From Ovis canadensis (lineage: Eukaryota; Chordata; Mammalia; Artiodactyla; Bovidae), in NCBI RefSeq assembly GCF_042477335.2, contig NC_091255.1:17400501-17464500 (forward strand): 64,000 bases of DNA. The letters run 5' to 3'. Below are positions 4,874 through 63,124 of this stretch, piece after piece; position 1 is the stretch's first letter, and every line of letters begins with the position of its first letter. The notes beneath the pieces were generated by a model, which was not told the origin of the DNA, searched no databases, and was given only the letters and a program-made list of their open reading frames with translations. The translations under genes were made by a program, and so were the position numbers.

Positions 4874-5448
4874 AATCTATCTCACTTGTATGTGGAAGAA
4901 CTTCACATTGTACTCTTATCTACCAAAGGCAGATACTCTATTTTGCCAAGAAGAAACATTTTCAGTGAAATAATTCAGACCAATCTGGAAGTCCTATGCA
5001 GAACAGACAATTCTAAGAAATAAGAAAGTTTTTACAGCACATCAAGGTTACAATGCCAATTAATTCCAGTGTTGATCAGTTCCTCATAATGAGAAATATG
5101 TGGGTTTCCTGTAGGAATCCTTGTATTAGAGGTAGTATGAGTTCACAGGTAAAGAATGCATCTATTCTTTAGATGATGGATCTAACAGATCTTAGAATAG
5201 ATGAATAAAGAATCATCAGTTTACTGTATAGATGATCTAGTTACACTTGGGATGGATGGTAAAACAGTATCAGGGCTTTGATTCACAAAATAAAGGGCAA
5301 GGTTTACAGGCAGTTAGCTTCCATTGTATTGACAGTATATGTTTGTCCATCTATGACTATTTCTAAGTAAGATCAGTTAGGCTTAAAATTAGAAGTAAAG
5401 GAAAAAAGGGAGAAAGAAGAGAACAAGAAGGAAAGAAAGAAATCAAGC
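4874..5448. other. Unit A left flank, no gene
   Basis: Non-coding DNA shared with unit B at about 30,545-31,290 (for example TATTTTGCCAAGAA near 4940 and 30,595, and AATGCCAATTAATTC near 5051 and 30,709). It ends in a purine-rich stretch at 5400-5445 also present in unit B. Confidence 0.7.
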
Positions 5449-5459
5449 CAGTTATCCAT

Positions 5460-8326
5460 CAGTTCAGTTCAGTTTAGTCACTCAGTCGTGTCTGACTCTT
5501 TGCCACCCATGAACCGCAGCACTCCAAGCCTCCCTGTCCATCATCAGCTCCCAGAGTTTACCCAAACTCATGTCCATTGAGTCGGTGATGCCATCCAACC
5601 ATCTCATCCTCTGTCATCCCCTTCTCCTGCACTCAATCTTTCCCAGCATCAAAGTCTTTTCAAATGAGTCAGCTCTTCACACCAGGTGGCCAAAGTATTG
5701 GAGTTTCAGCTTCAACATCAGTCCTTCCAGTGAACACCCAGGACTGATCTCCTGTAGGATAGACTGGTTGGATCTTCTTGCCGTCTAAGGGACTCTCAAG
5801 AGTCTTCTCCAACACCACAATTCAAAAGCATCAATTCTTCAGCTCTCAGCTTTCTTCATGGTCCAACTCTCACATCCATACATGATTACTGGAAAAATCA
5901 TAGCCTTGACTAGATGGACTTTGTGGACAAAGTAATGTCTCTGTTTTTTAATATGCTGTCTAGGTTGGTCATAACTTTTCTTCCAAGGAGTAAGCATCTT
6001 TTAATTTCATGGCTGCAGTCACCATCTGCAGTGATTTTGGAACCCCAAAAAATAAAGTCAGCCACTGTTTCCACTGTTTCCCCATCTATTTGCCATGAAG
6101 AGATGGGACCAGATGCCATGGTCTTAGTTTTCTGAATGTTGAGCTTTAAGACAAATTTTTCACTCTCCTCTTTCACTTTCATCAAGAGGCTTTTTAGTTC
6201 TTCTTCACTTTCTGCCATAAGGATGGTGTCATCTGCATATCTGAGGTTATTGATATTTTTCCCAGCAATCTTGATTCCAGCTTGTGCTTCTTCCAGCCCA
6301 GCGTTTCTCATGATGTACTCTGCATATAAGTTAAATAAGTAGGGTGACAATATACATCCTTGATGTACTCCTTTTCCTATTTGGAACCAGTCTGTTGTTC
6401 CATGTCTTGTTCTAACTGTTGCTTCCTGACTGGCACATAGGTTTCTCAAGAGGCAGATCAGGTGGTCTGGTATTCCCATCTCTCTCAGAATTTTCCACAG
6501 TATATTGTGATCCACACACTCAAAGACTTTGGCATAGTCAATAAAGAGGAATAGATGTTTTCCTGGAACTCTCTTGCTTTTTCTATGATCCAGCAGATGT
6601 TGGCAGTTTGATTTCTGGTTCCTCTGCCTTTTCTAACACCAGCTTGAACTTCTGGAAACTCACGGCTCATGTATTGCTGAAGCCTGGCTTGGAGAATTTT
6701 AAGCATTACTTTACCAGCGTGTGAGATGACTGCAATTGTGTGGTAGTTTGAGCATTCTTTGGTCCTACCTTTCTTTGGGATTGGAATGAAAACTGATCTT
6801 TTCCAGTCCTGCGGCCACTGCTGAGTTTTCCAAATTTGTTGGCATATTGAGTGCAGCACTTTCACAGCATCATCTTTTAGGATTTGAAATAGCTCAACTG
6901 GAGTTCTATCATCTCCACTAGCTTTGTTTGTAGTGATGCTTCCTAAGGCCCACCTGACTTCACATTCCAGGATGTCTGGCTCTAGGTGAGTGTGAGTGAT
7001 CACACCATCATGATTATCTGGGTCATGAAGATCTTTTTTGTACAGTTCTTCTGTGTATTCTTGCCACCTCTTCTTAATATCTTCTGCTTACGTCCATACC
7101 ATTTCTGTCCTTTATTAAGCCCATCTTTGCCATTCAATATCATGGTAATCCAAGTCTATGCCTCGACAAGTAATGCTGAAGAAGCTGAAGTTGAATGGTT
7201 CTATGAAGACCTACAAGACCTTTTGGAACTAACACTCCCCAAAAATGTCCTTTTCATGTAGGGGACTGAAATGTAAAAGTAAGAAGTCAAGAAACACCAG
7301 GAGTATGTCATGCACCTCTGTCCATAGTTCATCAGGCACTCTGTCTATCAGATCTAGTCCCTTAAATCTATTTCTCACTACCACTGTACAGTCATAAGGG
7401 ATTTGATTTAGGTCATACCTGGATGGTCTAGTAGTTTTTCCTACTTTCTTCAATTTAAGTCTGAATTTGGCAATAAGCAGTTCATGATCTGAGCCACAGT
7501 CAGCTCCTGGTCTTGTTTTTGTTGACTGTATAGAGCTTCTCCATCTTTGGCTGCAAAGAATAAATATGATCAATCTGATTTTGGTATTGACCAACTGGTG
7601 ATGTCCATGTGTAGAGTCTTCTCTTGTGTTGTTGGAAGAGGGTGTTTGCTATGACCAGTGCGTTCTCTTGGCAAAACTCTATTAGCCTTTGCCCTGCTTC
7701 ATTCTGTACTCTAAGGCCAAATTTGCCTGTTACTCCGGGTGTTTTTTGACTTCCTACTTTTGCATTCCAGTCGCCTATAATGAAAAGGACATTTTTTGGG
7801 GGGAGGGGGGTGTTAGTTCTAAAAGGTCTTGTAGGTCTTCATAGAACCATTCAACTTCAGCTTCTTCAGTATTACTGGTCAGGGCATAGACTTGGATTAC
7901 TGTGATATTGAATGGTTTGACTTGGAAACAAACAGAGATCATTCTGTCGTTTTTGAGATTGCAAAAGTACTGAATTTCAGACTCTTTTGTTAACTATGAT
8001 GGCTACCCCATTTCTTTTAAGGGATTCCTGCCTGCAGTAGTAGACATAATGGTCATCTGAGTTAAATTCACCCATTCCAGTCCATCTTAGTTTGCTGATT
8101 CCTAGAATGTCGACGTTCACTCTTGCCATTTCCTGTTTGAGCAGTTCCAATTCGCCTTGATTCATGGACCTAACATTCCAGGTTCCTACGCAATATTGCT
8201 CTTTACAGCATTGGACCTTGCTTCTATCACCCGTCACATCCACAACTGGGTGTTGTTTTTCCTCTGGATCCATCTGTTCATTCTTTCTGGAGTTATTTCT
8301 CCACTGATCTCCAGTAGCATATTGAG
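5460..8326 (-). mobile_element. BovB LINE (RTE clade), nearly full ORF, rearranged
   Basis: A 5'-truncated BovB lying antisense. Exact 11-base target duplications, CAGTTATCCAT, flank it at 5449-5459 and 8327-8337. Reading on the - strand, the N-terminal endonuclease (GTWNVRSMNQGE near 8190, ILGISKLRW near 8100) is followed by the reverse transcriptase (LRYADDT near 6230) and the conserved C-terminal tail; the 3' end carries the CAGTTCAGTTCAG-type terminal repeats. The frame is broken in several places. An inverted second copy of an endonuclease segment occupies 7131-7305 where the linker should be. Unit B has the empty site near 31,290-31,310, so this insertion postdates the A/B duplication. 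Confidence 0.92.
7131..7305 (+). repeat. Inverted endonuclease segment inside the BovB
   Basis: This piece is in + orientation inside a - strand BovB. It encodes the segment around VYASTSNAEEAEVEWFYEDL and is the inverted counterpart of about 7736-7912 in the same element. On both sides the - strand BovB resumes with the linker and RT start, so about 300 bases of linker are missing and replaced by this piece. Confidence 0.8.
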
Positions 8327-8384
8327 CAGTTATCCATAAGATTCCAGAAAAGAGAGAAAAGTTTGTTGAGGAGCAAGTCTGTGG

Positions 8385-8568
8385 TTCTCAAAGTGTGGTC
8401 CCTGTAACAGGGGATCAGCATCACCTGAGAACTTGTTACGAATGCAAATTCTGGGCCCTACCATGGGCCAACACATTGAGAAAGTCTAGAGGTTGGGCGC
8501 AGTGATTTATCTTTTAACAAGCTCTGCAAGTCACTGTCTCAAAGGTAAGAATCACTGGTCTAAGAAAT
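8385..8568 (+). mobile_element. MER5A-type hAT-Charlie DNA transposon
   Basis: Starts TGGTTCTCAAAGTGTGGTCCC, contains CATCACCTGAGAACTTGTTA, and ends with AAGAATCACTGG, the inverted terminal pair of MER5A. It sits in the same place upstream of all four receptor genes (others at 18,293, 31,350 and 57,050). Confidence 0.85.
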
Positions 8569-10022
8569 GGGTTCTTCTAAAACTCCCAGTAGTCTGTTTC
8601 TTTTGAAGAGATTCCTGTACTTTTGGATCTTGACCAAGGAATCCTGTATTCTACAAGTTTATAAAATTATATTGTCCTTGGTCCTTTTGGTCCCCAAGGA
8701 ATAACTTTTAATGAATATGTGGTTTTGAAACACTGAGAAACTTTTTAACAACTCCCATTGCTCCCTTCCCCCAAGTGGTAATCAGCCCAGCCCTATCTCC
8801 TGAGCCGAGTCCAGTAGTTTCTCACAAGGATATCTCCTCTTCCCCTAGAGTCACACTCATGGTTGCATACTCGATGTATGGGCAGTAACTTGGAAACGGA
8901 TGCTGGAGAAAAAGGATCTGCAAGAAGATGGAAGACCTGGAGACTCTCTCCCAGTCTGGCTGAAGGAAGGTGAGACCAGGATTTCCTCACCTGTGGATAC
9001 AGTAAGAAGGATCCAGAGTCACTTGCTGGAGAGTGCAGAGAATAAACAAAGAACACAGACTGATGGCAGGAAATCCAAAGTGTGAAGGGAGCCTCAGAAA
9101 GTAATGCAGAGGAAATGAGGCTCTGAAAACAGACTCCTCAAGTTGCATGTGCAAAACCAGGCTTTTAACAACCAAGTGAGAACGTGGTCCTGTGACTTAG
9201 AGGGAGGATGTTGAGAACAGAGGATAAAGAAATACACCGCAGAATTCTCCACATGGTCACACTGAACAAAATCATGTAACTCTCCTAATACATTAGGATA
9301 GCCAACTGTTTTTTGAGCAACTGCTAAATCAGAGTTGCTATTATATATTTTTGGGCTACTGAGTAATTAAATTTAAAATCTAATTCAAAGAGACAACAGA
9401 AAAGAAATGATAAATGCCGTATTAGAGGTACTTATAAAATGTTATTGGAACCCTGAGAAGGGAGGGATTAATTCTGCATGGGAGAAATGGAGAAAGAGTC
9501 AGAGAGAAGGTGATATCTGAGGACTTCTAGGTTGAGAAAGTTGTAGAATATATTTCAGGAAAGAGAATTCATTTCCAGAGCTACAGAAGCAACTGAATAT
9601 ATGACATATGTGATAGACTATGAATTCCCTGAACAGCAACCAGTTCCTGGGTAACAGGGATACTGATGAGAAGGGTAGATGGAACCTACATTTTAGAACT
9701 TGGTGTGACGCACTAAGAGGGAGTCACATGTATGTAAGCGTGTGTTTCAACCCTGAATTAACCCATAAATCATGTTAGGTCACTTCTAAGCATTTGAGTT
9801 TTAAGCTGTGGGCCTTCAATACTCATTAAAAGATTATAATGATGGGGGCAGGTGATCAAATATGAGTTTGGAAAGATCTCGCTGACAGTGATATAGTATA
9901 TAGACAAGAGTGGAGGCAGATGGAAGCGCAAGGATAAGACTAAAATGATCTCTGATGGACAATGGATTGCAGGAGGCAAGAGGAGGGGAGTGAGGCAAGA
10001 CAGGGGAGTGCAGAAGCCACTT
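8569..10022. other. Shared upstream flank of the first OR4D2-type gene
   Basis: Non-coding. The block at 8730-8960 (AACTTTTTAACAACTCCCATTG, then the GAGTCCAGTAGTTTCTC segment) recurs upstream of the other D2 gene (31,690-31,900), in recognisable form upstream of both D1 genes (18,680-18,900 and 57,430-57,660), and at the start of unit C (62,120-62,290). The stretch 8960-9805 aligns with 62,300-63,124. Apparent open frames here are not conserved between copies. Confidence 0.7.
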
Positions 10023-10210
10023 AACCCTCACTTGTCACCTCTATCTCTCACCTCCCTAACCTTCTTCACCTTTCTTCCCTTCCATCTCCCACCCCTCCAC
10101 CTTGTCATTCCCTTTCTTTCCTCCCCCTTAATCTTAATCTTCTCCTTTTTGTTCCTTTGTCTATTCTATTTCTCTTATTTCAGTATCTTCCCGTGTCTTC
10201 TGCTCTTGTA
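10023..10210 (+). other. Pyrimidine-rich tract upstream of the first OR4D2-type gene
   Basis: Nearly uninterrupted C/T-rich sequence on the + strand. Equivalent tracts occupy the same relative place upstream of the other three receptor genes (20,402; 32,450; 58,915). It gives an open frame here only because of composition. Confidence 0.7.
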
Positions 10211-10664
10211 TTCAGTAACATTTTATAAATTCTTGGGCTTTTTATTAAAGGTCTTCCAATCCCCTTCATACAGTATCCACCACCTGTTTTTAATTAGAGA
10301 ATCTCTCTCCACTTCCTCGTGTCTCAGCACACACACCATATACGTCCTTGCTTCATCCAGTAAGGGACCACCTACACCAGGGAGAGGGGACATTCCCTAT
10401 AGCTGTTCACCCACCCAGAGTCAACACCACATGCTTTTTGAGTATTGACTATCACAAAGCGTGAGCACTGCAGGGCACAAATAAATTGTGAATCAAGACA
10501 TAATGTCAGTAGCACGTTATGGTTGAATTGGGGAGGAAAAACCTAGAGACAAAAAGTTCATTAACATTTTGATGTGTTAGCTGTTACACGAGAAATGATT
10601 GGTGCAAAATGTATTAGAGACTTGGAAGAAGGCAAGGGATCTTTACAGTGGGACACTACATAGA

Positions 10665-10895
10665 GGAGAGTGATTACCATGTAATATTCCAGGTACTATT
10701 TAAGGAACCTATGTGTTATCTCATTTAATCTCCTAGACAGTCCATAGAGACAACATTTTTGTTGTGGAAACTGAGACAGAGAGCTTGAATAACTTACTCT
10801 GGGTCAAATCTCAAGAATAAGAAGCTCTGGAATTTGACTACAAGTCTACCAGATGTTTGGACTCCAAACATCTTCTCATCACTGTACTACACAGA
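10665..10895 (+). mobile_element. MIR SINE upstream of the first OR4D2-type gene
   Basis: Decayed MIR with the recognisable core TTATCTCATTTAATCTCCTAGACAG and GTGGAAACTGAGACAGAGAG. The same MIR lies at the same distance upstream of the other three receptor genes. Confidence 0.8.
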
Positions 10896-11107
10896 ATGTT
10901 TAAAAAGCAGCCTGTATGTGTCTCTGGATGGTTTTTTGATATAGCATGAATATATATTTCAGCACCAACTTGTACATGCTCCAAAGGCAAGGCCATTTAA
11001 TCAGTATCTGGAATTATGATCTGCACAAAAATGTCCATCATCTAGAACTGGAACTCAATTTGAGCCCCTGAGCACTAATACATCTCTGTCTGTGGTGTGT
11101 TTTCTTC

Positions 11108-11109
11108 AC
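11108..11109 (+). other. Lost 3' splice-site AG before the first OR4D2-type gene
   Basis: In the other three genes the pyrimidine run TTTTCTTT (TTTCCTTT in D1a) is followed by AG and then GTGTATGG or GAGTATGG/GAGTATGC, 18 bases before the start codon. Here the aligned bases read TTTTCTTCAC, so AG has become AC. OR genes typically splice a 5' non-coding exon to a site just upstream of the coding exon; assigning this site is inference from conservation. Confidence 0.6.
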
Positions 11110-11127
11110 GTGTATGGAGAAGACACC

Positions 11128-12063
11128 ATGCAACCAGGGAACCTCACATGTGTATCAGAATTTGTCTTCCTGGGGCTCTCACAGACTCACGAGCTCCACC
11201 TCTTCTTGTTTCTGGTGTTCCTGCTTGTCTACACAACCACTGTCATGGGAAACCTCCTCATCATGGTCACGGTGAGCTCTGATTCCAGGCTCCACACACC
11301 CATGTATTTTTTGCTCAGAAACCTGGCTGTCATAGACCTCTGTTTCTCCTCAGTCACTGCCCCAAAGATGCTGGTGGACTTCCTCTCTGAGAAGAAGACC
11401 ATCTCCTACCAGGGCTGCATGACCCAGATCTTCTTCTTCCACTTTCTGGGAGGTGCCATGGTCTTCTTCCTCTCAGTGATGGCCTATGACCACCTTGTTG
11501 CCATCTCCCGGCCCCTCCACTATGTCACCATCATGAACACTCAGGTCTGTGCTGGGCTGGTGGTGGCAAGCTGGGTGGGAGGCTTCATTCATTCCATTTC
11601 CCAACTGGCTCTGATGCTCCCACTGCCTTTTTGTGGCCCCAATGTCCTAGATAACTTCTACTGTGATGTTCCACAAGTGCTGAGACTCGCCTGCACTGAC
11701 ACTTCTGTCCTGGAGTTCCTCGTGATCTGCAACAGTGGGGTGCTGGATGTCATCTGGTTCCTCCTCCTCCTGGTCTCCTACTCAGCCATCCTGGTGATGC
11801 TGAGGTCCTACTCAGGGCAGGCAAGGAGGAAGGCAGCTTCCACCTGCACCACCCACATCATCGTCATGTCTATGGTCTTCATTCCAAGCATTTACCTCTA
11901 TGCCCGGCCCTTCACCTCCTTCTCCATGGACAAGGCTGTATCCATCAGCCACACGGTCATGACCCCCATGCTCAACCCCATGATCTACACCCTGAGGAAC
12001 CAGGAGATGCAGGCAGCAGTGAAGAGATTAGGGAGGCGCTGGCTGCTTTGTAAAAGAGAGTGA
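11128..12063 (+). CDS. OR4D2: Olfactory receptor family 4 subfamily D, OR4D2-type, copy 1 (D2a)
   Basis: Seven-transmembrane class A odorant receptor of olfactory sensory neurons, expected to couple to G-olf; its ligand is unknown. The protein is 311 residues; I chose the ATG at 11128 because it aligns with the other three genes. Seen: N-glycosylation site NLT at residues 5-7, [13 protein letters not shown] at 55-67 (ICL1/TM2), Cys97 for the TM3-ECL2 disulfide, Cys169/179/189 in ECL2, KAASTC at 235-240 before TM6 and [12 protein letters not shown] at 280-291 in TM7. D2-type marks are GGAMVFF in TM3 and SIYLYARPF in TM6. Odd: the motif is MAYDHL, with His122 replacing the arginine found in D2b (CGC to CAC), and the upstream 3' splice-site AG is lost. 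The frame is complete, so it is called a gene, but its function is doubtful. It is about 90% identical to D2b. Confidence 0.95.
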
Positions 12064-12481
12064 TAGTGGGTCACTTCTCTTTGGCTTTGTTTTCCATTGA
12101 TAATTAGGAGAGAGAGCTGCTGTAACTGGCCTCTTCAATAACTTGTGTATGTGTTATAAGGGTGATCATAAAAGTGAATGCCTATTGAAAATAAGCAGCT
12201 TACCCAGATTTTGAGGAAAAAGGTAAATTCTTACTTTTGTTTGTGTTAGATGATTTGAACACTCCAATGACAGCAACATTTGTTGTCGTGGAAACATTCT
12301 GGCAAGCCACACTCTCCTTTCTGCCTGTTAGAATGATAGCATTTCCCCAGGAGAGCAGTTCTGTTTTCTGTATTTTGACCTCTTTCTCAGTACCTCATTT
12401 TGGTGTGAGACTGGATTATTGGAGACTGCCCAGGATTCTGAGTCTTAAGCTTTAATTTGGAGACCCTAACTACTGAACTAC
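12064..12481. other. 3' flank of the first OR4D2-type gene
   Basis: Non-coding sequence matching 35,227-35,640 after the second OR4D2-type gene, including the AAGCATTCTGG/AAACATTCTGG and AGCAGTTCT segments. It presumably holds the 3' untranslated region; no single polyadenylation signal stands out. Confidence 0.6.
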
Positions 12482-12602
12482 GTGAGTCTGAGTGAACTCT
12501 GGGAGTTGGTGATGGACAGGGAGGCCTGGCGTGCTGTGATTCATGGGGTTGCAAAGAGTCGGACACGACTGAGCAACTGAACTGAACTGAACTGAACTGA
12601 AC
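12482..12602 (+). mobile_element. BovB 3' terminal fragment (Bov-A/ART2A type)
   Basis: The last 120 bases of the BovB 3' end in sense orientation, with GAGTTGGTGATGGACAGGGA and the terminal run of GAACT repeats at 12,575-12,600. Confidence 0.9.
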
Positions 12603-12979
12603 CCATCACTTACCAAATGGATGACCTTGCATGAGACACTTGCCTTCTCTTGAACTCATAACTTCTTATCAACAAACTCACTGATCTTAATATCTGATCC
12701 CAAGCCTCCCAGTTTTATTATGAGTCATATATAAAAACTGTGAGATAACATTGAGTGGACTATGGAATTACATGTTATTTTCAAGTTGAAAATAACACTT
12801 CAAGTCACGCTTTTTCACTGTACATTTTAGTATAGTATAATGATTATTACAAGCAAAAGATTACATGTAAAACACGCAATTTCAAAACACTATGTAATAT
12901 AATATGAATATTCATGTACATGATACTCAATTCAGGAATCACAGGGTACCAATAGCTTATACCTGCCTATAGGTCCTCT

Positions 12980-14830
12980 CCATCACATGACTTTTCCCCA
13001 GATGAAACCATTTATTTGAATTTTGTGTTTATCATTCCATTGCTTATAAAAATAATCTCATCACATTTTAACATAATCAGCATATTGTTTTATTTTGCTA
13101 TTTTGAGCTTCATACAAATATTACATTGTATATAATATTCCAGGATTTGCTTTTTTCCACTCCACATTATGTTTCTAAATGATACATGTTATTCTTTTTG
13201 TCTGTAGTTTATTCATTTGCTCTGCTGTATAATATTCCTTTGTGAGGATAAGCTTAGAGGGATTGTTCCCAGTTTTTGCTGTTGCAAACAGTGCTTTTTT
13301 GAATATTCTTCTACTTGTTGTTTTGTTGAGGGGCTTGGGTCATATATCTGCAAGTGGAAATGCCGATTAAAGTGGATAAAAATATTTCACTGTAGAGAAA
13401 TTGGTATTTCTATCATATTTCTTTCCACACTTTTTATTGTACGCAATTTCCCATGAATGCTTTATTTGCTTTTCTACTGACTGTTTCTATGTAGTATAGG
13501 AGTGCCTGTGTAATTTGGTTGCTGATTTATTGCCGGCTATATTTATTACAATGCCTTCTCCCAGTTTATGGTTTGTCTTCTTTATTTTTGGTATTAGTTT
13601 TCATGTAATCAGGTATATCAATCTTTTATTTTAGTATTAGCTAATGTGTGTTTAGTCTCTCAGTCTTGCCTGACTCCGAAACCCCTTGGATTGTAACCTG
13701 CCAGGCTCCTCTGTCCATGGAATTTTTCAGGCAAGAATACTGAAGTGGGTTGCCATTTCCTCCTCCAGGGGATCTTTCCAGTCCAGGTACTGAACCTGCA
13801 TCTCCAATGTCTCCTGCATTGCGGGTAGATTCTTTACCTGCTAAGCCGTTGGGGAAGCCCAGCTAGCTCATATTAATATCTAATTTTAAAAAATAGTTTC
13901 TTATCCAGAGGATAACATGATATTCTGCTACCAAATTCTATCTTAACTTTTTAAAAATTTTAACTTTAAAAACATTTTACACTCTTTGAGAAACTTCAAA
14001 CTTACAGAAAATTTGTAAGTATAGTAGATTTTTTTTTCCCTGAAAGATTGAGGGTAATTTACCAACCCAATGCCCACCACTCCTTAATATTTGTATGCAT
14101 TTCCTACAAAGAAAATTTCCTCCAATACTGCCATACAGTGATTAAAACTAATATAAAACAAACATTGATAGAGTATAATATTTAGTTTCTACTCAAGTTT
14201 TGCCAGATTTCTCAATAAAGTCTGATAAACAGAGAATCTGGTGAGAAGCCATGTGTTGCATTTAGCTGTCATGTCTTTTTAAACTCATTAGATCTGAAAG
14301 AGTTTCCCCTTGGTTTTGCTGAATAGTACCCCATTCTTCTTTATGGCTGAATACTATTCCACTGTCTGGATACAGTACATTTTGCTTATCCACTCATCTG
14401 TTGAATGACATTTTGATTGTTTCCTCATTTTGTCTATTGTAAGGGCTACTGCTAATATTTATTAACAAATATTTGTCTGAATACCTATTTTCAGAACCTT
14501 TGAGTATATACCAATGAGTAGAATTGCTGGATCATGTGGTTAATTCTGCGTGTAAATCTTTGAAGAACTGTGAAAGTGTTTTTTATAGCAGCATTCCCAT
14601 TGGAACTTATGAGGTTTCTAATTTCTTCACATTCTCACACTTGTTATTTATTACTGCTATTACTACTACTATCCTATCAGGCATGAAATAGTATCACATG
14701 GGTTTTATTTTCATTTCCTTAATTACTGATGATATTGAACATCATTTCATGTTGAGCATTATTTATCATAGGGCATTTAAATACTTTCTTTAGAGAAATG
14801 TATATTCAATCACATTGCCTATTTGGAAAA
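12980..14830 (-). mobile_element. Old L1 (L1ME/L1MB-like) 3' portion, interrupted
   Basis: Antisense ORF2 end and 3' untranslated region of an old mammalian L1. The parts are 12,980-13,640 (with GCTGTATAATATTCC), 13,865-14,270 and 14,290-14,830 (with GAATTGCTGGATCATGTGG). Part of it recurs in unit B at 36,260-37,560, so it predates the duplication. A Bov-tA SINE splits it. Confidence 0.7.
13646..13861 (-). mobile_element. Bov-tA SINE
   Basis: Antisense Bov-tA with CCAGGCTCCTCTGTCCATGG and ending GGGGAAGCCC at the SINE start. It interrupts an old L1. The copy in unit B has no SINE at this point. Confidence 0.88.
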
Positions 14831-15087
14831 TTGGGTTTTTGCCTTTTTCTTGTTGAACTGTTGTTGCCATTCAATCACATGTCCAACTCCTGTGACCCCA
14901 TGGACTACTTATATAAACTTTTCTTATGTTTCCTATGTCATTTCTGCTTATTTCTCAGTCATTTTCCTATTTATTTGGTTTTTCCTTTTTGTCTCCGTGG
15001 CCTTCCTTAATCTCGTATTGATCCTTGGCTATCTATACTTAAGAACAAGGCAGTAAATATAAATTTGTACATCTCTATATGAAAGCA

Positions 15088-15300
15088 TTTCCCTGGTGGC
15101 TCACACAGCAAAGAATTTGCCTGCAATGAGGGGGACCCAGGTTTGATCCCTGGGTTGGGAAGATTCCCCTAGAGAATGAAATGCAACCTAGCTTCAGTAT
15201 TCTTGCCTAGAGAATTCCTTGGACAGAGAAGCCAGGTGGGCTACAGTCCAGGGGTTGCAAGGAGTCTGACACAACTGAGTGGCTAACACTTTCACTTTCA
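15088..15300 (+). mobile_element. Bov-tA SINE
   Basis: Sense Bov-tA from TTTCCCTGGTGGCTCA to the terminal CACTTTCACTTTC. Near-identical decamers ATATGAAAGC and ATATAAAAGC flank it and may be its target duplication. It is absent from the unit B counterpart near 39,925. Confidence 0.88.
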
Positions 15301-16770: not shown

Positions 16771-16795
16771 CACTGCTCTCCTATTCTTCTTGCTG

Positions 16796-17748: not shown

Positions 17749-17814
17749 GATATTCTTTAAAAAGGATAACTTTCCATCATGTTAACTAATGTTAACCTAA
17801 AAATGTATGTGTTG

Positions 17815-18038: not shown

Positions 18039-18194
18039 ATATAAAGAGTACTAGAGTTTTATAGATGGTGGAATAGAATTGGATATGGAGGGAGAATCAA
18101 CCTTGAGACCTGATTGACAAAATAAGATTCATAGGATTTTTTTTCCAATGTTGTATACAAACATTTTCCAACCTATGATGTTGTCCATGTAAAG

Positions 18195-19770: not shown

Positions 19771-19777
19771 GACACCT

Positions 19778-21180: not shown

Positions 21181-21185
21181 ATGCA

Positions 21186-53299: not shown

Positions 53300-53945
53300 T
53301 TATATATGTCTCGGGGTGTTTTGCCTTGGGTTATTCCTGTTTGGGACTCTCTGTGTTTCTTGGACTTGGGTGATGATTTCCTTCCCCATTTTAGGGAAGT
53401 TTTCAACTATTATCTTCTCAAGTATTTTCTCAAGGCCTTTCTTTTTGTCTTCTTCTTCTGGGACTCCCATGATTCGAATGTTGGGGCATTTGACATTGTC
53501 CCAGAGGTCTCTGAGGTTGTCCTAGTTTCTTTTAATTATTTTTTCTTCTCTGCTTCATTTATTTCTCCCATTCTATCTTTCACATCTCTTATTCTATCTT
53601 TTGCCTCGGTTATTCTACTGTTGGTTCCCTCCAGAGTGTTTTTGATCTCAGTTATTGCATTATTCATTATTGATTTACTCTTTTTTATTTCTTCTAGGTC
53701 CTTGTTAAACATTTCTTGCATCTTCTCAATCCTTGTCTCCAGTCTATTTATCTGTAACTCCAATTTGTTTTCAAGATTTTAGATCATCTTTACTATCATT
53801 ATTCTGAATTCTTTTTCAGGTAGACTCCTTATCTCCTCCTCTTTTGTATGGTTTGGTGGGCTTTTATCCTGTTCCTTTACCTGCTGAATATTTCTCTGCC
53901 TTTCATCTTGTTTAGATTGCTGCATTTGGGGTAGCCTTTCTGTAT
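53300..53945 (-). pseudogene. L1 ORF1 remnant, N-terminal and middle part
   Basis: Encodes a leucine/charge-rich coiled coil (RLETRIEKMQEMFNKDLEEI, near 53,700-53,750) followed by the start of the RNA-binding part. At about 53,310 it runs directly into ORF2 endonuclease sequence, so the ORF1 C-terminal part and the inter-ORF spacer are deleted. Confidence 0.8.
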
Positions 53946-54469
53946 GCTGATAGTTTGTGGCTCCTCTTTAATGTGGAGGTTCCTCCCTGTGGGTGGGGTT
54001 GGACAAGTGGCTTGTCAAGGTTTTCTGGTTTGGGAAGCTTGCATCAGTGTTCTGGTAGGTGGAGTTGGATCTCCTCTCTCTGGAGTGCAATGAAGTGTCC
54101 AGTAGTGAGTTTTCAGGTGTCTCTGGGTTTGGTGTGACTTTTGGCCACCTGTATTTTAATGCTCAGAGTTATATTCCTGTGTTGTTGGAGAATAATCTTC
54201 ATATATCTTGCTCAGAAACTTGTTGGCTCTTGTGTGGAGCTTGATTTCATTGTAAGTATGGAAGTTTTTTGATGAGCTCTTCTTGATCAATGTTCTCTGG
54301 ATTCAGGAGTTTTCTGTAGTTCTCAAATTTTGTATTTAAGCTTTCTGCCTCTGGCATTCAGTCTTATTTTTACAATAGCCTCAAGACTTCTCCATCCATA
54401 CAGCACTGATGATAAAACATGTAGGTTAATGATGAAAAGCTTCTCCGCAGTGAGGGACACCCTGAGAGG

Positions 54470-54850
54470 TTCACAGAGTTACATGGAGAAGAAAAGAGGG
54501 AGGAGGGAGATAGAGGTGACGAGGAGGAGAAGAGAGGAAATCAAAAGGGGAGAGAGCAAGCTAGCTAGTCATCAGTTCCCTATGTGCTCTCCACAGTCTG
54601 GACCCCTCAGAGAAGAGAAGAGGCAGGAAGGAGACAGAGGTGACCAGGAGGAGAAAAGGGGGAATCAAAAGGAGAGAGACAGATCCAGCCAGTAATCAGT
54701 TCCCTAAGTGTTCTCCACAGCCAGGATCACACAAGGGGATTCACAGAGTTGGGTAGAGAAGAGAAGGGGAAGGGAGGTGATAGAGGTGACCTGGTGGAGA
54801 AAAAGGTGAGTCAAAAGGGGGAGAGAGCAATCAAGCCAGTAATCACACTC
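54470..54850. repeat. Three tandem repeats in the L1 5' untranslated region
   Basis: Three imperfect copies of a purine-rich unit marked by GAGGTGAC (54,513, 54,637, 54,783), spaced about 124 and 146 bases. The long open frame across it follows from composition. Confidence 0.8.
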
Positions 54851-55079
54851 CTAAGTAAAAATGGGTTCTGAACACTAGGTTCTTAAAGGTACAAAATTGA
54901 TAACAAACACCAAAAAGCAAAGACTAAAAATCTAGAGTAGAGGTTAGACTCTCAAAAATACAGTATTAAAAAAATAACAAAAATTATAAATATATATATA
55001 TATGAAATTTAGTTTAAAAACAGGGTATTTTTTGCAAGGTAATAGTAGGTTATAAAAATGAAAATTAAAGGAGTAATAA

Positions 55080-56016
55080 CCACAGACTGGCTCCAAATAT
55101 GAAAAGGAGTATGTCAAGGCTGAATATTGTCACCCTGCTTATTTAACTTCTATGCAGAGTACATCATGAGAAACACTGGGCTGGAGGAAGCACAAGCTGG
55201 AATCAAGATTGTGGGGAGAAATATCAATAACCTCAGATATGCAGATGACACCACCCTTATGGCAGAAAGTGAAGAGGAACTAAAAGGCCTCTTGATGAAA
55301 ATGAAAGAGGAGAGTGAAAAAGTTGGCTTAAATTTCAACATTCAGAAAACGAAGATCATGGCATCTGGTCCCATCACTTCATGGGAAAGAGATGGGGAAA
55401 CAGTGGAAACAGTGTCAGACTTTATTTTTGGGGGCTCCAAAATCACTGCAGATGGTGACTGCAGCCATGAAATTAAGACGCTTACTCCTTGGAAGAAAAG
55501 TTATGACCAACCTAGATAGTATATTCAAAAGCAGAGACGTTACTTTGCCAACAAAGTTCTGTCTAGTCAGGGCTATGGTTCTTCCAGTGGTCATGTATGG
55601 ATGTGAGATTTGGACCATGAAGAAGGCTGAGCACCAAAGAATTGATGCTTTTGAACTGTGGTGTTGGAGAAGACTCTTGAGAGTCTCTTGGACTGCAAGG
55701 AGATCCAACCAGTCCATTCTGAAGTAGATCAGCTCTGGGATTTCTTTGGAAGAAATGATGCTAAAGCTGAAACTCCAGTACTTTGGCCACCTCATGAGAA
55801 GAGTTGACTCATTGGAAAAGACTCTGATGCTGGGAGGGATTGGGGGCAGGAGGAGAAGGGGACGACCTAGGATGAGATGGTTGGATGGCATCACTGACTA
55901 GATGGACATGACTCTGAGTGAACTCTGGGAGTTGGTGATGGACAGAGAGGCCTGGTGTGCTGTGATTCATGGGGTCGCAAAGAGTCGGACACGACTGAGC
56001 GACTGAACTGAACTGG
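55080..56016 (+). mobile_element. BovB 3' third inserted in the L1 5' untranslated region
   Basis: Sense BovB from GACTGGCTCCAAATATG (within RT) through [17 protein letters not shown] to the terminal GAACTGAACTG. Opposite in orientation to its host L1. No clear target duplication seen. Confidence 0.93.
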
Positions 56017-57049
56017 AAGAATTTAAAAATTACAAAATTATAACAGTAAAATGTATCTAGGAATTTCTCTGGAGCTGTTGAGGGCAGTGTGGGGTCAGTT
56101 CAGTTTCAGATAGTCCCTCGTTCCAGCTTCTACTTCTTCTCAAGGTCTATAGGCCCCTTCCAATGTAGTCACTAAAGGGTTTTAATCTGTTGCACCTGTC
56201 ACTTCCAGTGCAATTCCCTCTTGGTTTATTTTGGCTTCCTCTGTTTGCAAGTCTCTTCAGTGTCTAATTTCCACCCTGACACAAGGCGGCAAAGGTGGTC
56301 ACTTATTTAGGCACAATTGTTCAGTTGTCCTGTGGGGAGGGAGAAACACTGCAAAGAAACATCACTGGTGTGTGTGGGGAGTGCTCGCAGTGTCTGGGCC
56401 ACATTGGGTTTGCCCCCAGTCCTGGTGTGCTTTGCCGGTCTACACTGCTCAGGCTCCAGGTTGCTCTGCAGGGGAACTGTCTAAAGTGGGCCCTGGGTTG
56501 CGTGCACTTCCCAGGTCTAAGCTGTTCAGGTTCAGGGTCTCGGATACTCCACAAAGGCACAGACTTGGTTGGAAGTCACAGCTAGGTGTGTAATCTGTGG
56601 GTTCTTTTTTGTTTTTTTTTTTCCCCTCCCAGTTATGTTGCCTTTCAAGATTCCAAAACTCCCCAGAGACCCGCTGGTGAGAGGGTTTCCTGGTGTTTGG
56701 AAACTTCTCCTCTTTCACAACTCCCTCCCCGGGATGGGTCTCCATCCCTAAGTCTTTTGTCTCTCTTTTTATCTTTTATATTTTGCCCTACTTCCTTTTG
56801 AAGAAAATGGTCTGCCTTTCTGGGTGCCTGGTGTCCTCCGCCAGCATTCAGAAGTTGTTCTGTGGAATTTGCTCAGCGTTCAAATGATCTTTAGATGAAT
56901 TTTGGGGGGAGAAAGTGGTCTCCCCATCCTATTCCTCCATCATCTTCTAGAATACAGCCAATTAATTTTTTTTAAGTAAGCTGTCAAACCAATGGTCTTG
57001 ATAATGTGAGAGAGAAACTGTCCATCATACTGACAAGAGCAGTGAAACT

Positions 57050-57215
57050 CAGTCATTCTCAAACTGTGGCCCCAGATAAGTAGCACTAGCATCACATGAA
57101 AAGTTGTTAGAAATGCTAATTCCCTGTAGACCTCAGCCATCCAAGAGCTACTGAATCTTAGGTTTAGCATCCCCTTCAGATGATTCAGGTGCATGCTTAC
57201 AGTCTCTGAAATGGG
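57050..57215 (+). mobile_element. MER5A-type hAT-Charlie DNA transposon
   Basis: CATTCTCAAACTGTGGCCCC, then CATCACATGAAAAGTTGTTAG; counterpart of the three other upstream copies. Confidence 0.75.
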
Positions 57216-58149
57216 TCCTTCCAAAAATCCTGGAAACTTTCAGAGAATCTGATTTTTCTAATCTTGATCTCCTAATCTTATATGTCATGAATCTCTATAA
57301 TTTTCAGTGTCCTTTGTTGACTTTTCTTTTGTTTAGGTTGTGTGTGTGTGTATTTGATTCTTATTTTGTTTTCATTGTTGTTGTTGTTGTTTCCTCAAGG
57401 TAAGCCTCTTAAACGGTGTTTTCGAGAGACTTAGAAACTTTTTTAACAACTCCCATTGTTCCCTCACCCTAGCGGGAATTGTTTCAACTTTGCTTCCTGA
57501 GCTCAGTCCAATAATTTCTCCCTGAGAATATGGACTCTTCCCCAGGGTCATGACTCATGTGTGTCAGTGATGCCAGAGATGAGGAAGCTGTGAGGCCGTA
57601 TGGAGAGAGTCTCCCAGAAAGTGTAAGACATGAACTCTCTTCTCCCATCCAGGCCTGAAGAAAGGTGAGAGCCTGAGGGTTTCCACACCCTCAGATAGGT
57701 CAATGATAGTTAGGTTCTTAGAAACACTTGTTGGAGGGTGGGGAGAATAAACAAGTGACCTAGACTTGATGGTACTAAGTGTAATGTTGGAGAAGAGCTT
57801 TGGGAAGAAATCTGAGGGTGGGTATATGCTATTAAAACAGCTGCTTCAGGTTGCATGTAAAACCCAGTACTTTTAGCAACCAAATATAGACCTGCCCTTA
57901 TAAGACAGGGAACAGAAGATAGGTAAAATCACTTTAAAAATCTCCACATAATTAATTACCTATTTAATACATTAATTGGACAATATTCACTGAGCATAAG
58001 GTGTATCAGAGTTGCTGTTCCAAGTTCTGGGGTTACCAAAATATTGAAATTATGATGTGGTTGGTTGAGGGGAGAAGTTTAAAAAAATGAATGATAATAA
58101 ACCTGTAACAGAGGTTTGTTTTCAATGTTTGTATGTTTATGTTTGTATA

Positions 58150-58361
58150 TGTGTCTGTTATTCACTCAACTGTGTCTGAATCTTTATGATCTCATGGATT
58201 GTAGCCTGCCAAGGTCCTCTGTCCATGAAATTCCCCAGGAAAAATTACTGGAGTGGGTTGTCATTCCCTTCTCCAGGGGATCTTCCTGACCCAGGGATGG
58301 AACTGCGGTTTCCTGCACTGCAGGCAAATTCTTTATCATCTGAGCCACAAGGGAAGCCCCA
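58150..58361 (-). mobile_element. Bov-tA SINE
   Basis: Antisense Bov-tA: GTTATTCACTCAACTGTGTC to CACAAGGGAAGCCCC. Absent from unit A near 19,380. Confidence 0.88.
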
Positions 58362-58914
58362 TTTTTTATGTTTAAGAACATTGAAAAATGAGGAATTTGT
58401 TCTGCATGGGAGAAATAATGAGAAGAGTGATGAAAACGGTGATATTCGCATTGACTTTTTCTATGGTTGAGAAGATGAAGAAAATTGCAGGAAACAAAAA
58501 GGGAAATAAATACACAGCATCTTTAAGACTATTTTCCATTAAAGAGCTAGTGGATCACCAGAGGTGGAGGTACTAATTAGAAAGGCAGATGGAACTTACA
58601 TTTAAAGCCCTGTGTGACATGCTGAATTGTATGCACATGTATATGTTTCTACCCTGACTTGATCCACAAAGTATTATATGTGTCTCCTAAGGGGCTCTGG
58701 TGGAATCACTACAAGAATAGATGTGAGAGGGGAACATGATCAGATTAGCATTCTGAAAGGTCTGGACAGCTGTGTAGAAGGTGTACTGGAATGAAAGATG
58801 AAAGGGAAAATTAAAAAGGGAGTAATCCCTGAGAGATAACGGATTTCAGGAAGTCAGGTGAGAGTGGGTGGAGATTGAGAGGAAGCCAAAGGAATAGGGA
58901 GGGCACTTAGCCCT

Positions 58915-59080
58915 CGCCTTTTGCCTCTGTCCCACTCCTTCCCCCGCCACACCACCTTTCCATGTCTTCTTCCTTCACCATTCTATTCCCCCAGCTTCCT
59001 TCCTTATGATAAATTTTCTCCTTTGAATTCTTCATTTATTTCACTTTCTTTTACTTCAACGTTTTTTTCTTCTACCCTTG
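58915..59080 (+). other. Pyrimidine-rich tract upstream of the second OR4D1-type gene
   Basis: C/T-rich tract equivalent to 20,402-20,600. Confidence 0.68.
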
Positions 59081-59454
59081 GATCAATACCACCTTCTGAA
59101 ATTGCCGTCATTTCAGAAGAACTCTAAGTCCCCTTCAAACAATGTATTTATGTATTTCTTCACTAATGAAATACTTACTCCATGCCATTTTCCCACATAT
59201 AATCTGAGGAGCCTCATTTAGTAAGGGTTACCTACCCTGGAGGTTGGAAAGAAATGGAATGTTCCAGATGTGCAGCTGTATTCAGAGACTCCCTCACATG
59301 TCCTGAACCCCAATAACTTTTAACACACCTAGCAGTTAACCCCAGTTAACACCACCTAAATTGGAATATTTAGGACATTCTCTGCTTTGAGGATTAACCC
59401 CATAAACAGCAAAAAAAAATCCTTAAACAGTTCAGCTAAAACTGGATCTCTCTC
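59081..59454. other. Intergenic flank shared with unit A
   Basis: Aligns with about 21,755-22,010 (AGAAGAACTCTAAGTCCCCTTC, then ATAATCTGAGGAGCCTCA). No gene. Confidence 0.6.
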
Positions 59455-59685
59455 TCCCAGGTGGCACACTGGTAAATAATCTGCCCTCCAATGCAGGAGT
59501 CACAAGAGACCCCTGGGTTGGGAAGATCCCATCCCATGAAGTAGGAAATGGCAACCCACTCTAGTTTTCTTGTCTGGAAAATCTCATGGACAGAGGAGCC
59601 TGGGGGGCTACAGCCCATGAAATTACAAAGAGCTGGACATGACTGAAGTGACATAGCACGCGCACTCACACATGCAGGTTTTAAT
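59455..59685 (+). mobile_element. Bov-tA SINE
   Basis: Sense Bov-tA: CTCCCAGGTGGCACACTGGT to CACGCGCACTCACACATGC. Absent from unit A near 22,010. Confidence 0.87.
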
Positions 59686-60002
59686 TACCGACCATAAGCA
59701 AAGATGGGTAGTGAAGGGCACAAATAAATTGGGAAATCAAGGCCTATGTGTCTAGCACATTATGACGAAATTCAGAAGGGAAATCAGGCACATGAGAACT
59801 TCATGAACATTCTGTTGCTTTCACTGTTGCATGAAAAAAGATGGATATAATATTCACGCTTTCTAATAACTCTAATTGAAAATAACCTGTAAGTTATGTA
59901 AAACATAATAGGTTTTTAAAATAAATTAATATTTAAAAAGGAAAAATGATTGGTGTAAAAATGTAGAGACTGGAGTAGAGTAGAAGACTACACAGAGGAG
60001 AG

Positions 60003-60215
60003 TGATTAATATTTATTATTCTAAATACTATCCTGGGAAGTCTATGTGTCATTTTATTTAATCCCTTAGCCAATTTCTATAAAGAAAACATATTTCTTTC
60101 AGATGCAGAAACTGAGACTCACATTAAATAGCTTACTCAAGGCCAAATCTCAAAGAAATAGAAGTTCTCAAATTCAATTCTGTTTGGTTTCACTCTAAGT
60201 ATCTTCCCAGCTAGA
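60003..60215 (+). mobile_element. MIR SINE upstream of the second OR4D1-type gene
   Basis: Decayed MIR with GTGTCATTTTATTTAATCCC and GATGCAGAAACTGAGACTCAC; the uninterrupted counterpart of 22,498-22,845. Confidence 0.78.
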
Positions 60216-60453
60216 TTACACTGAATCTTGGAAAGGCAGGTGGCATGTGTCTGGACGGCTTTAAGATATCTCACGTATGTTTTTCCCAGCACCAACTAGT
60301 AAACTTTCCAGAGACAAGGTCATTCAGTCAGCACTTGGTATTGTAATCTGTACATAAGAATGCCCATTATATTGTCTTGGACAACTGAATTGAGCCCTTG
60401 AGCACTAAGAGGGCAAGCAACAACTTCATGCCTATCTCTGGTGTGTTTTCTTT

Positions 60454-60455
60454 AG
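60454..60455 (+). other. Probable 3' splice site of the second OR4D1-type gene
   Basis: GTGTTTTCTTTAG ends 18 bases before the start codon, as in D1a and D2b. Confidence 0.6.
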
Positions 60456-60473
60456 GAGTATGCAGAAGACATC

Positions 60474-61409
60474 ATGGATTCAGGGAACCTCACGTGGGTA
60501 TCAGAATTTGTCTTCCTAGGGTTCTCACAGAACCAGAAGCTCCAGCTTTTCTTGTTTCTGGTGTTCCTGTTTGTCTACACAACCACTGTCATGGGAAACC
60601 TCCTCATCATGGTGACAGTGACCTCTGATTCCAGGCTCCACACACCCATGTATTTCCTGCTGAGAAACCTGGCAGTCATAGATGTCTGCTTCTCCTCAGT
60701 CACTGCCCCAAAGATGCTGGTGGACTTCCTCGCTGAGAAGAAGACCATCTCCTATGAGGGCTGCATGACTCAGATCTTCTTCTTCCACTTTCTGGGAGGT
60801 GGGACTCTCCTCTTCCTTTCAGTGATGGCCTATGACCGCTACATAGCCATCTCCCAGCCTCTCCACTACATCACCATCATGAACACTCGAGTGTGTGTGG
60901 GGCTGGTGGTTGCTGCCTGGGTAGGGGGCTTTGTCCACTCCATTGTCCAGCTGGTTCTGATGCTCCCATTGCCTTTCTGTGGACCCAACATCCTAGATAA
61001 CTTCTACTGTGACATTCCACAAGTGCTGAGGCTTGCCTGCATGGACACCTCCCTCCTGGAGTTCCTTATGATCTCCAACAGTGGGATGCTGGTCCTCATC
61101 TGGTTCCTCCTCCTTCTGATCTCTTACACAGTCATTCTGGTGATGCTGAGGTCGCACTCTGGGCAGGCGAGGAGGAAGGCAGCTTCCACCTGCACCATCC
61201 ACATCATTGTTGTGTCTATGGTCTTCATTCCCTGTATCTATATCTATGCCCGGCCCTTCACCTCTTTCCCCATGGACAAAGCTGTGTCCATCAGCCAAAC
61301 AGTTATCACCCCCATGCTCAACCCAATGATCTACACCCTGAGGAACCAGGAGATGCAGGCAGCAGTGAAGAGATTGGGCAAGCGCCTAGTGATTTCCAGT
61401 AGGGAGTGA
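60474..61409 (+). CDS. OR4D1: Olfactory receptor family 4 subfamily D, OR4D1-type, copy 2 (D1b)
   Basis: Intact 311-residue odorant receptor, paralogue of D1a with 26 differences by my count (about 92% identity). Class A GPCR of olfactory cilia by family; ligand unknown. Seen: NLT glycosylation site at 5-7, [13 protein letters not shown] at 55-67, Cys97, [10 protein letters not shown] at 118-127 with full DRY, ECL2 cysteines 169/179/189, KAASTC at 235-240, [12 protein letters not shown] at 280-291. Many D1a/D1b differences lie in or near TM3 and the loops (Q95E, A98T, L106F, V111L, F112L), where ligand contacts are expected in ORs, so the pair may differ in tuning. Thr242 of the KAASTCTTH segment is Ile here. 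A 20-codon upstream frame at 60,460-60,519 overlaps the start, as in D1a. Confidence 0.97.
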
Positions 61410-61519
61410 ACTTAAAATAGGTTGATTTTAAAAGACAAATCTTCTCAATGAACCTTTGTTTTCCATGTGAGATGTGGAAAATATGGAGTGTGATGGTTGA
61501 AATTAAACTGATATTTCCA

Positions 61520-61760
61520 CAGACATTTTCCTGTGTCAGCTCTTTTGTTAGTTACTTTCAGACTTCTCTCTCATTCTTACAAAGCTGACAGAAGGTATGG
61601 TAGTAATATAGAGTTTTACAAACGAGAAAACTCAGAGAGAAAAAACTTGCTCAGTGATGAACAGCAAGTGAGGGGCAGAGCTTGGCCAGGAGATGGCTCC
61701 TCTGACTCCAGGTTTTGAGGCAGGAGATATGGGTGGGATTTGAAACTCAGAGTATCTCGC
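61520..61760 (+). mobile_element. MIR SINE downstream of the second OR4D1-type gene
   Basis: Counterpart of 24,170-24,400, with GGGATTTGAAACTCAGAG near its 3' end. Confidence 0.72.
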
Positions 61761-62108
61761 CATCACAAAGGAAAACTTAGAGAGTTCCTCTTTTATGGGT
61801 GAATATCTCTGCTGAATGGTCAACACTTCCATGTCAAATCTGGAGCAATTACATTTGTTCTCCTCCCTGCTCTTTGCCTCTTTCCCTACTGTGGTATTTC
61901 AGAAGTGATATCATTTGCTAAGCTTCTAAATATGTTTCATCCTCAAAGTACATATTTATCCACACTTTGGATTGGGTCTTTCTTGACCAAATACTTCTTG
62001 GATATTCTGCAGGATATTCTACTTTAGTGACCAAATCTTTATATACTTTGGATGATATGGCTATGAGGACAATGTTGTGGGTGGTTGGGGAACCCAGGCT
62101 TGAGAGGG

Positions 62109-63124
62109 CAGGGACCTTGTCCTGCTTCCTGAGGGAGTCCAGTAGTTTCTCCCCAAGGATATACTCTTGTCTCCTAGGGTCACTCTCCTTGTTGTATGGG
62201 TGATGTGTGGGCACTGGCTGGGAAACTGATCCTGCAGATAAAGGATCTCTAACAAGACGGATGACCTGACGACTCTTTTCCATTCTGGCCTGAAGGAAGG
62301 TGTGAAACTAAGATTTTCTCACCTGCATATAGAGCAGCTGTAAGAAGCATCCAGAAACTTGTTGGAGAATGTAGAGAATAAATAAGTGATATGGACTCCA
62401 TGCTAGTCAATCTAAAGCCTGAGGATAACCTCAAGTGTAATGGAGGGGATACAAGGCATTCAAAATAGATTCCTCAAGTGGCAAGTGAAAACCAGGCTTT
62501 AACCACCAAGTTACACTTGGTCTTGTGATTTGGAGGGAAGATGCTGAGAGCAAAGGATAAGGTGATACACCCCACAATTTATCACATGGTCAAATTGAAC
62601 AAGATCATGTAATTATCTCGTAATGCATTAGAATAGGAACATATTTGAGCAAGTACTAAGTCAGAGTTGCTATTATAGGTGCTGGGGCTACTAAATTATT
62701 GAATTTACAATCTAGTTAAGAGAAAGAACAAGAAAGATATGATAAAAGTTGTAACAAATGTACTTACAAAATGTTATTGGAATCGGAACCCAGAGAAATG
62801 GATTAATTCTGCATGCGAGAAATGGAGGAGTCACAGAGGTGATATCTGAGGACTTCAAGGTTGAGAAGGTAGTAGAAGGTATTTCAGGAAACAGAATGCA
62901 TTGCTAAAGCTACAGAAATAACCAAACATATAGCATGTGTGAGACACCATGGATTCCTGACTGCCATCTGTTCCCAGGTAACAGAGATACTGATAAGAAA
63001 CGTAGATGGAGCCTACGTTTTAGAACTTGCTGTGACCCACTGAGAGGAAGTTGCATGCACATATGTAAGCGTGTCTTTGAACCATGAACTAACCCTCAGT
63101 GCATGTTAGGCAGCTTCTAAGAGT
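62109..63124 (+). repeat. Start of segmental duplication unit C (third OR4D2 upstream flank)
   Basis: From GAGTCCAGTAGTTTCTCC at about 62,133 the sequence follows the D2 upstream flank: 62,120-63,124 aligns with about 8,795-9,805 of unit A, including ACTTGTTGGAGAATG, GTTATTGGAATC and the final CATGTTAGGCAGCTTCTAAG. Left of it is the D1 downstream flank (as at 24,700-24,960). The MER5A and the part left of 8,795 are missing from this copy. An L1 breaks the alignment at 63,125. Confidence 0.85.

Follow-up and report, generated by a model that had tools for sequence, protein, structure and literature searches.

Organisation of the OR4D locus

The stretch analysed here (64,000 nucleotides of Ovis canadensis contig NC_091255.1, hereafter C11, positions 17,400,501 to 17,464,500 of the forward strand; referred to as the window) contains four intact olfactory receptor (OR) genes of the OR4D subfamily, and forms the middle part of a tandem array of 11 OR4D-like loci spanning about 200 kb (197 kb; C11:17293500-17490916). 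The array consists of five loci of OR4D1 type (D1) and six of OR4D2 type (D2), with one locus inverted, and seven of the 11 are intact from the usual ATG, with frames of 311 codons. A tblastn search with the four window proteins over C11:17280501-17544500 recovered the same 11 loci. When the whole genome (2.97 Gb, 42 contigs) was searched, with scores assigned to the best candidates only and hence at least 127 matches in total, 11 of the 127 scored matches lay in the array; viral contigs searched for relatives contained none. The loci are listed below, with coordinates outside the window expressed relative to it (C11 position minus 17400500).

-107000: g0 (psi0), D1-type pseudogene with 2 stops
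-65766..-64831, minus strand: g1, D2, intact
-53417: g2, D1, intact
-32150: g3, D2 pseudogene
-21175: g4, D1, with a one-base deletion near codon 15 that puts the usual ATG out of frame
11128..12063, plus strand: D2A (g5), OR4D2-type, intact open reading frame of 311 amino acids (aa), MAYDHL in place of the DRY-type arginine, AG acceptor before the ATG lost
23095..24030, plus strand: D1A (g6), OR4D1-type, intact, 311 aa, MAYDRY, 5' third (to about nucleotide (nt) 324) inseparable from the D2 class
34291..35226, plus strand: D2B (g7), OR4D2-type, intact, 311 aa, MAYDRL
60474..61409, plus strand: D1B (g8), OR4D1-type, intact, 311 aa, MAYDRY, 5' pattern as in D1A
65579-66505: g9, D2 pseudogene, just outside the window
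89481-90416: g10, D2, intact

A preliminary description, made from the letters of the window, had read the order as D2, D1, D2, D1 followed by a third D2 upstream flank, and both parts of this reading were borne out: the four genes start at 11128, 23095, 34291 and 60474, all on the plus strand, and the additional flank is described below. Along the array, the blocks that make up a unit keep one order in every unit, while around g1 the entire D2 block (-69182 to -61028), with the intact gene inside, has been turned round.

OR genes typically have a single coding exon of about 310 codons, with a splice acceptor just before the ATG. The Pfam domain 7tm_4 covers nearly the whole protein in all four window genes (E <=8.9e-42, cut-off exceeded), and the top PDB sequence match of D2B was consOR4 (E 6.5e-127). 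The two classes are clear, since protein identity within a class (89.7% for D2A and D2B, 91.6% for D1A and D1B) exceeds that between D1 and D2 (81.7-83.0%). Ratios of nonsynonymous to synonymous substitution (dN/dS) were 0.21-0.27 in all six pairs of window genes, as would be expected under purifying selection. The intact genes are expected to encode class II odorant receptors of an ordinary kind and to have a non-coding exon upstream that is spliced to the coding exon.

Homology between the repeat units

Outside the coding exons, the window is made up of two homologous units and the beginning of a third.

4887..24953, plus strand: unit A (D2A to D1A), aligned part, its limits being the extent of alignment to unit B
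30546..62110, plus strand: unit B (D2B to D1B), aligned part, including the insertion-rich 41494-56958
62121..64000, plus strand: start of unit C, a D2-type upstream flank whose D2 pseudogene (g9) lies beyond the window

Alignment of unit A with unit B gave a collinear chain of 24 of the 113 plus-strand high-scoring segment pairs (HSPs), with 12,770 aligned columns and a score of 10,433, whereas the chain in the minus-strand control comprised 7 of 65 HSPs and scored 2,634. Two HSPs that paired one BovB retrotransposon with another were removed (BovB and, below, Bov-tA being what both we and the preliminary description take these elements to be). The 22 blocks that remained contain 9,401 noncoding sites at 78.3% identity, equivalent to a Kimura two-parameter (K2P) distance of 0.261, or 0.251 without CpG, and 1,872 coding sites at 92.6% identity. 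The diagonal thus reaches beyond the exons, in agreement with the earlier claim that the flanks align over kilobases. Such collinear homology in direct order, well beyond the exons, is a tandem segmental duplication, in which the block around g1 has been inverted. The third D2 upstream flank is equally evident, with 62127-63131 matching 8798-9800 and 62121-62743 matching 31751-32360. Since unit C begins at 62121-62127 and the 3' flank of the D1 gene of unit B aligns as far as 62110, units B and C abut directly.

Similar distances were found throughout the array. Noncoding K2P among the D2 units (g1, g3, g5, g7 and g9) was 0.210-0.298 upstream and 0.211-0.277 downstream, and among the D1 units (g2, g4, g6 and g8) 0.225-0.320 upstream and 0.188-0.298 downstream.

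Two parts of the window fall outside this pattern. The chain leaves out the stretch 24954-30545 between the two units, which also lacks a counterpart at the B/C junction; this may be due to a deletion or to a different breakpoint. BovB copies occur in it at 26209 and at 28074, and the second of these is the most diverged of ten compared. Within unit B, 41494-56958 places about 15 kb between two blocks for which the spacing in unit A is about 1.4 kb. BovB and other repeats abound in this stretch, only repeats find counterparts in unit A, and a frame on the minus strand at 52633-53217 is presumably L1-ORF2-like.

Probable exchange between D1 and D2 coding exons

The distinction between the classes does not extend over the whole coding exon. 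A maximum chi-square test on the 116 sites at which psi0 differs from all D2 copies placed breakpoints at nt 210-218 in g2 and at nt 324-329 in g4, g6 and g8, and in none of these four array D1 copies was the statistic reached by any of 2000 permutations. To the left of the breakpoint, psi0-like sites were rare (2/38 in g2, 4/48 in g4, 3/48 in g6 and 2/49 in g8); to the right they amounted to 45/76, 33/63, 32/62 and 28/61, respectively. Class distances among the four D1 copies and four intact D2 copies, calculated for five segments of the exon, followed the same course. For nt 1-90, 91-210 and 211-324, the mean D1-D2 distances were 0.142, 0.122 and 0.130, as against 0.136, 0.097 and 0.113 within D1, and in the two segments of nt 325-936 they were 0.166 and 0.167, as against 0.057 and 0.086 (approximately 2-3 times the distance within D1). 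In phylogenetic trees for which three further OR genes from this genome (61-67% identical to D2B) served as outgroups, the 3' part separated D1 from D2 with 90-100% support, and the 5' part mixed them with weak support.

Taken together, these patterns suggest a probable exchange between coding exons, in which the 5' third of the D1 genes became inseparable from D2. A competing explanation, which we regard as rather unlikely, is that no gene conversion took place, and that purifying selection together with synonymous constraint lowered the divergence of the exons while the 5' part of psi0 diverged fast. Selection clearly acts on these genes, as the dN/dS ratios given above indicate, and several further results count against conversion. 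In approximately unbiased (AU) tests, a clean D1/D2 split was not rejected in nt 1-210 or 1-324 (p 0.33 and 0.41), and neither placement of psi0 was rejected in any part. Moreover, the psi0 branch is long in the 5' part (0.29 in nt 1-210, compared to 0.09 in nt 331-936), so that a fast-evolving psi0 could lie behind part of the breakpoint pattern, and synonymous constraint could account for part of the low divergence at fourfold-degenerate sites. In favour of conversion, this divergence was below that of the flanks in all 21 array pairs (14 of them at an uncorrected Fisher p < 0.05), and also in all 16 pairs left when g10, with its mixed-class upstream flank, is set aside (10 of 16 at uncorrected p < 0.05), yet it came close to flank divergence in all four pairs with psi0 (ratios 0.84-1.04). 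Selection and constraint by themselves would also be hard to reconcile with a loss of class signal that is confined to the 5' third. Because the AU tests were non-significant and a fast psi0 could mimic part of the pattern, conversion is only the probable cause, and D2 to D1 its presumed direction. The p values of a run-length test for conversion were inconsistent and, across 55 pairs, uncorrected, so no weight is placed on it here.

The last gene, g10

Recombination may also have joined parts of the two classes at the right end of the array. The upstream region of g10 is closer to D1 units than to D2 units at 86.4-86.8 kb (identities of 0.80-0.85 and 0.68-0.71, respectively) and at 87.6-87.8 kb (0.76-0.83 and 0.66-0.70), and at 87.0-87.2, 87.4-87.6 and 88.2-88.4 kb the D1 units alone align over at least 50 sites. 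From 88.6 kb onwards the two classes hardly differ. Identity over the coding exon after nt 235, in contrast, is 0.93-0.98 to D2B and 0.80-0.89 to the array D1 copies, and the 3' flank aligns to D2 units only. Gene g10 thus combines a coding exon of D2 type with upstream sequence that is largely D1-like, as would be left by a D1-D2 crossover or by conversion. Against this stand the windows at 87.2-87.4 and 87.8-88.0 kb, in which D1 and D2 units match equally well or D2 has a slight lead; neither event explains this patchiness. Since the upstream region of g10 mixes D1-class sequence into D2 flank distances, the 3' flank provides the fairer comparison between g7 and g10, and there K was 0.349 over 295 sites, compared to 0.072 in the coding sequence.

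Retrotransposon insertions and the age of the array

Six insertions had been named in the preliminary description as private to one unit and younger than the split between units A and B. All six were found within 5 bases of the positions given there:

5459..8323, minus strand: BovB insertion in unit A, empty in unit B
33197..33822, plus strand: BovB insertion in unit B, empty site at 10658/10659 of unit A
38095..39111, minus strand: BovB insertion in unit B, where unit A has an unaligned gap at the site
13641..13863: Bov-tA-like short interspersed nuclear element (SINE) in unit A, empty in unit B
24435..24657: Bov-tA-like SINE in unit A, empty in unit B
30847..31066: Bov-tA-like SINE in unit B, with no copy between 5157 and 5245 of unit A

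For five of the six, the other unit aligns on both sides without the insertion, as expected if they postdate the split; the privacy of the copy at 38,096 is unproven, as its site falls in the gap of unit A.

Over a 264-kb stretch, 57 BovB-like pieces and 37 SINE copies were recorded, and for 27 of the 47 entries inside unit intervals a unit coordinate could be assigned to one side or both. On inspection, one place proved common to two units, namely a Bov-tA-like SINE in g2 and g4 at unit coordinate ~18268. The two copies have the same orientation, their target duplications seem by eye to begin at the same base, and the site is empty in g6 and g8. Weak matches link their tails to BovB (E 3e-4 and 9e-5), and trees of the 3' coding part join g2 with g4 as sisters (95 and 96% support). 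The mapping had also suggested that g2, g8 and g10 share insertions near unit coordinate 21942-22070, but the alignment shows, by eye, different target sites.

The earlier proposal that the pair was amplified in the ruminant lineage gains support from this SINE for g2 and g4, because the two share a Bov-tA-like element and Bov-tA depends on BovB; this support covers at least part of the array. According to passages of PMC8620236, BovB entered the ruminant ancestor approximately 50 million years ago and Bov-tA is RTE-dependent. Flank distances (Jukes-Cantor) were 0.263 for g2 and g4, and 0.222 (D2 part) and 0.233 (D1 part) for units A and B. Because the g2/g4 distance exceeds that between A and B, the A/B split would, on a clock, likewise fall within the ruminant lineage. 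Among the placeable insertions, neither the A/B split nor the remaining units are dated by a shared one.

Given these results, we put the probability at about 80% that this 11-locus OR4D array grew from an OR4D1-OR4D2 pair, partly in the early ruminant lineage, and then went through birth and death. Unequal crossing over between repeated units would have expanded the array at the site of the pair, with growth falling at least partly in the early ruminant lineage. Later birth and death would account for retrotransposon insertions that are mostly private to one unit, one block inversion and four degenerate loci, and would have been accompanied by a probable exchange of coding exons between copies (the D1 5' third) and by one probable crossover product, g10, in which the D2 exon follows upstream sequence of largely D1-like character.

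Several observations weigh against this account, and most would suit an array older than the ruminants, in which most units were already present in a cetartiodactyl or laurasiatherian ancestor and ruminant repeats were added later. At an average mammalian rate of 2.2e-9 per site per year, the A/B distance (K 0.26) corresponds to approximately 59 million years, before the published arrival of BovB. Moreover, among the 16 unit pairs formed without g0 and g10, 6 exceed the distance between g2 and g4, and the first splits may thus be older. Among placeable insertions, one site alone proved common to units, and the ruminant timing draws on this shared SINE together with the published dating of BovB. 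The distance between the two copies of the SINE (K 0.22) is no smaller than that to several other copies, a result compatible with an old shared insertion but no proof of one. Near-coincident insertions do occur in the array, since the SINEs of g1 and g3 near 13541-13567, which are oppositely oriented, are no more than about 25 bases apart. In addition, the equation of D1 and D2 with human OR4D1 and OR4D2 is our assumption, which also draws on the DYNLL2-, EPX-, LPO- and MPO-like neighbours described below. OR4D has also expanded in the horse, as stated in parts of PMC7160942.

An origin before the ruminants nevertheless appears unlikely to us. The argument from K ~0.26 is weakened by g2 and g4, which share a Bov-tA-like SINE at one site though their flanks are farther apart than those of units A and B, and the 3' ends of ten BovB copies from the window differ by 0.05-0.18 from an approximate majority sequence, a range that brackets half the unit distance (~0.13). 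False duplication of units by the assembler, to which tandem OR arrays are generally prone, can practically be dismissed, since a noncoding difference of about 22% and private insertions go far beyond a difference between haplotypes.

Upstream regions and the state of D2A

Two conserved blocks upstream of the window genes are candidate promoter regions:

8324..9411, plus strand: conserved upstream block of D2A, homologous to 31287-32360 and 62127-62743 and more weakly to the D1 block at 18197-19377
18197..19377, plus strand: conserved upstream block of D1A, with two EBF-like sites, matching 56959-58122

Using a pattern that we take to represent EBF-like sites, the first of two aligned sites was kept in 6 of 10 upstream blocks, the second in 6 of 10, and at least one in 8 of 10. 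D2A and D2B have kept neither, though each has another match elsewhere in the block; in D2B (31287-32360) a deletion takes out the pair, and in D2A both sites are altered. The pattern is frequent in the window (73 occurrences, 0.57 per kb per strand), and the sites are therefore candidates only.

The AG acceptor about 20 bases before the ATG is present in 10 of the 11 copies and is lost in D2A alone (11090-11130), and the DRY-type arginine 3.50 is present in six of the seven intact genes, D2A having DHL compared to DRL (11480-11510). Since both features are lost, D2A is probably impaired despite its open frame.

Relation to known OR4D genes

The multiplicity of OR4D2 in a bovid is already known, and the array is in this respect an ordinary find. 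An enrichment table for cattle (PMC11909109) includes OR4D1, OR4D2, OR4D2B, OR4D2D, OR4D2E and OR4D2G, that is, several OR4D2-named genes plus OR4D1, as here; the table gives gene names only, whereas gene order, pseudogenes and mosaicism are described here. Similarly, PMC7297042 reports a copy number variation (CNV) region in sheep at 11:8.67-8.68 Mb over OR4D2, from one array-based call (a loss). OR4D2 is thus copy-number variable on chromosome 11 there, whereas the structure of the array is described here. OR4D expansion is not unique to ruminants, since the horse has, according to parts of PMC7160942, 57 OR4D genes in 18 clusters, with up to 18 genes in the other species studied. The subfamily and the clustering are the same, but the horse case differs in lineage and in its many loci, and a syntenic place is not shown in those parts. 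Pig and warthog papers mentioning OR4D name, in the passages concerned, OR4D5, OR4D10 and OR4D11 only, and the main text of a cattle OR survey (PMC3766653) contains neither 'OR4D' nor 'chromosome 19'. Literature passages on OR4D1 with OR4D2, OR4D expansion, letter-suffixed OR4D2 names and OR4D in sheep contained no description of the array.

Exchange between tandem OR genes has a precedent, as Sharon et al. 1999, judging by the title, reportedly described a primate OR cluster diversified by gene conversion. The present array offers a well-preserved example of OR birth and death, with unit copying, insertion clocks, inversion, probable exon exchange and recombination between upstream and coding regions within 200 kb, between neighbours that can be recognised. 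It also implies that one-to-one OR4D1/OR4D2 orthology calls in ruminants, and associations of single-nucleotide polymorphisms (SNPs) or CNVs at these genes, are unsafe.

The presumed human orthologue of the D1 class is OR4D1. This receptor is found in testis and sperm and is activated by 5alpha-androst-16-en-3-one, as stated in parts of PMC4703994. Here, in contrast, psi0, the D1 locus at the left end, is a pseudogene, and the other D1 genes have 5' thirds inseparable from D2. It is possible, though somewhat unlikely, that with the original OR4D1 dead its role passed to receptors born in the array, OR4D2-like in their N-terminal third (which presumably ends at about the start of the third transmembrane segment) and OR4D1-like in the rest, and that a crossover also put an OR4D2 exon under OR4D1-type upstream control. 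If so, ruminants would read OR4D1-type ligands, including the androstenone-type steroid and with it any role in sperm, with chimeric receptors.

Neighbouring genes

The flanks of the array were searched for two families, Dynein_light and peroxidase. On the left, a Dynein_light first exon lies at C11:17241716, and on the right peroxidase exons lie at 17507703-17516810, 17594922-17610268 and 17613932-17621251; judged by position and order, these would represent DYNLL2-like and EPX-, LPO- and MPO-like genes, respectively. With D1 first and D2 last, the array agrees with the human order, which we take to be DYNLL2-OR4D1-OR4D2-EPX. The D2-D1 register of the units is arbitrary; a D1-type first locus and a D2-type last locus fit an ancestral D1-D2 pair.

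An annotated EPX was, according to parts of PMC7119366, not retrieved for sheep or goat, where only short matching sequences were obtained. In the EPX-like gene at C11:17507703-17516810, compared with MPO of the same genome, two of the three detected exons contain in-frame stops, and the gene may therefore be a pseudogene.

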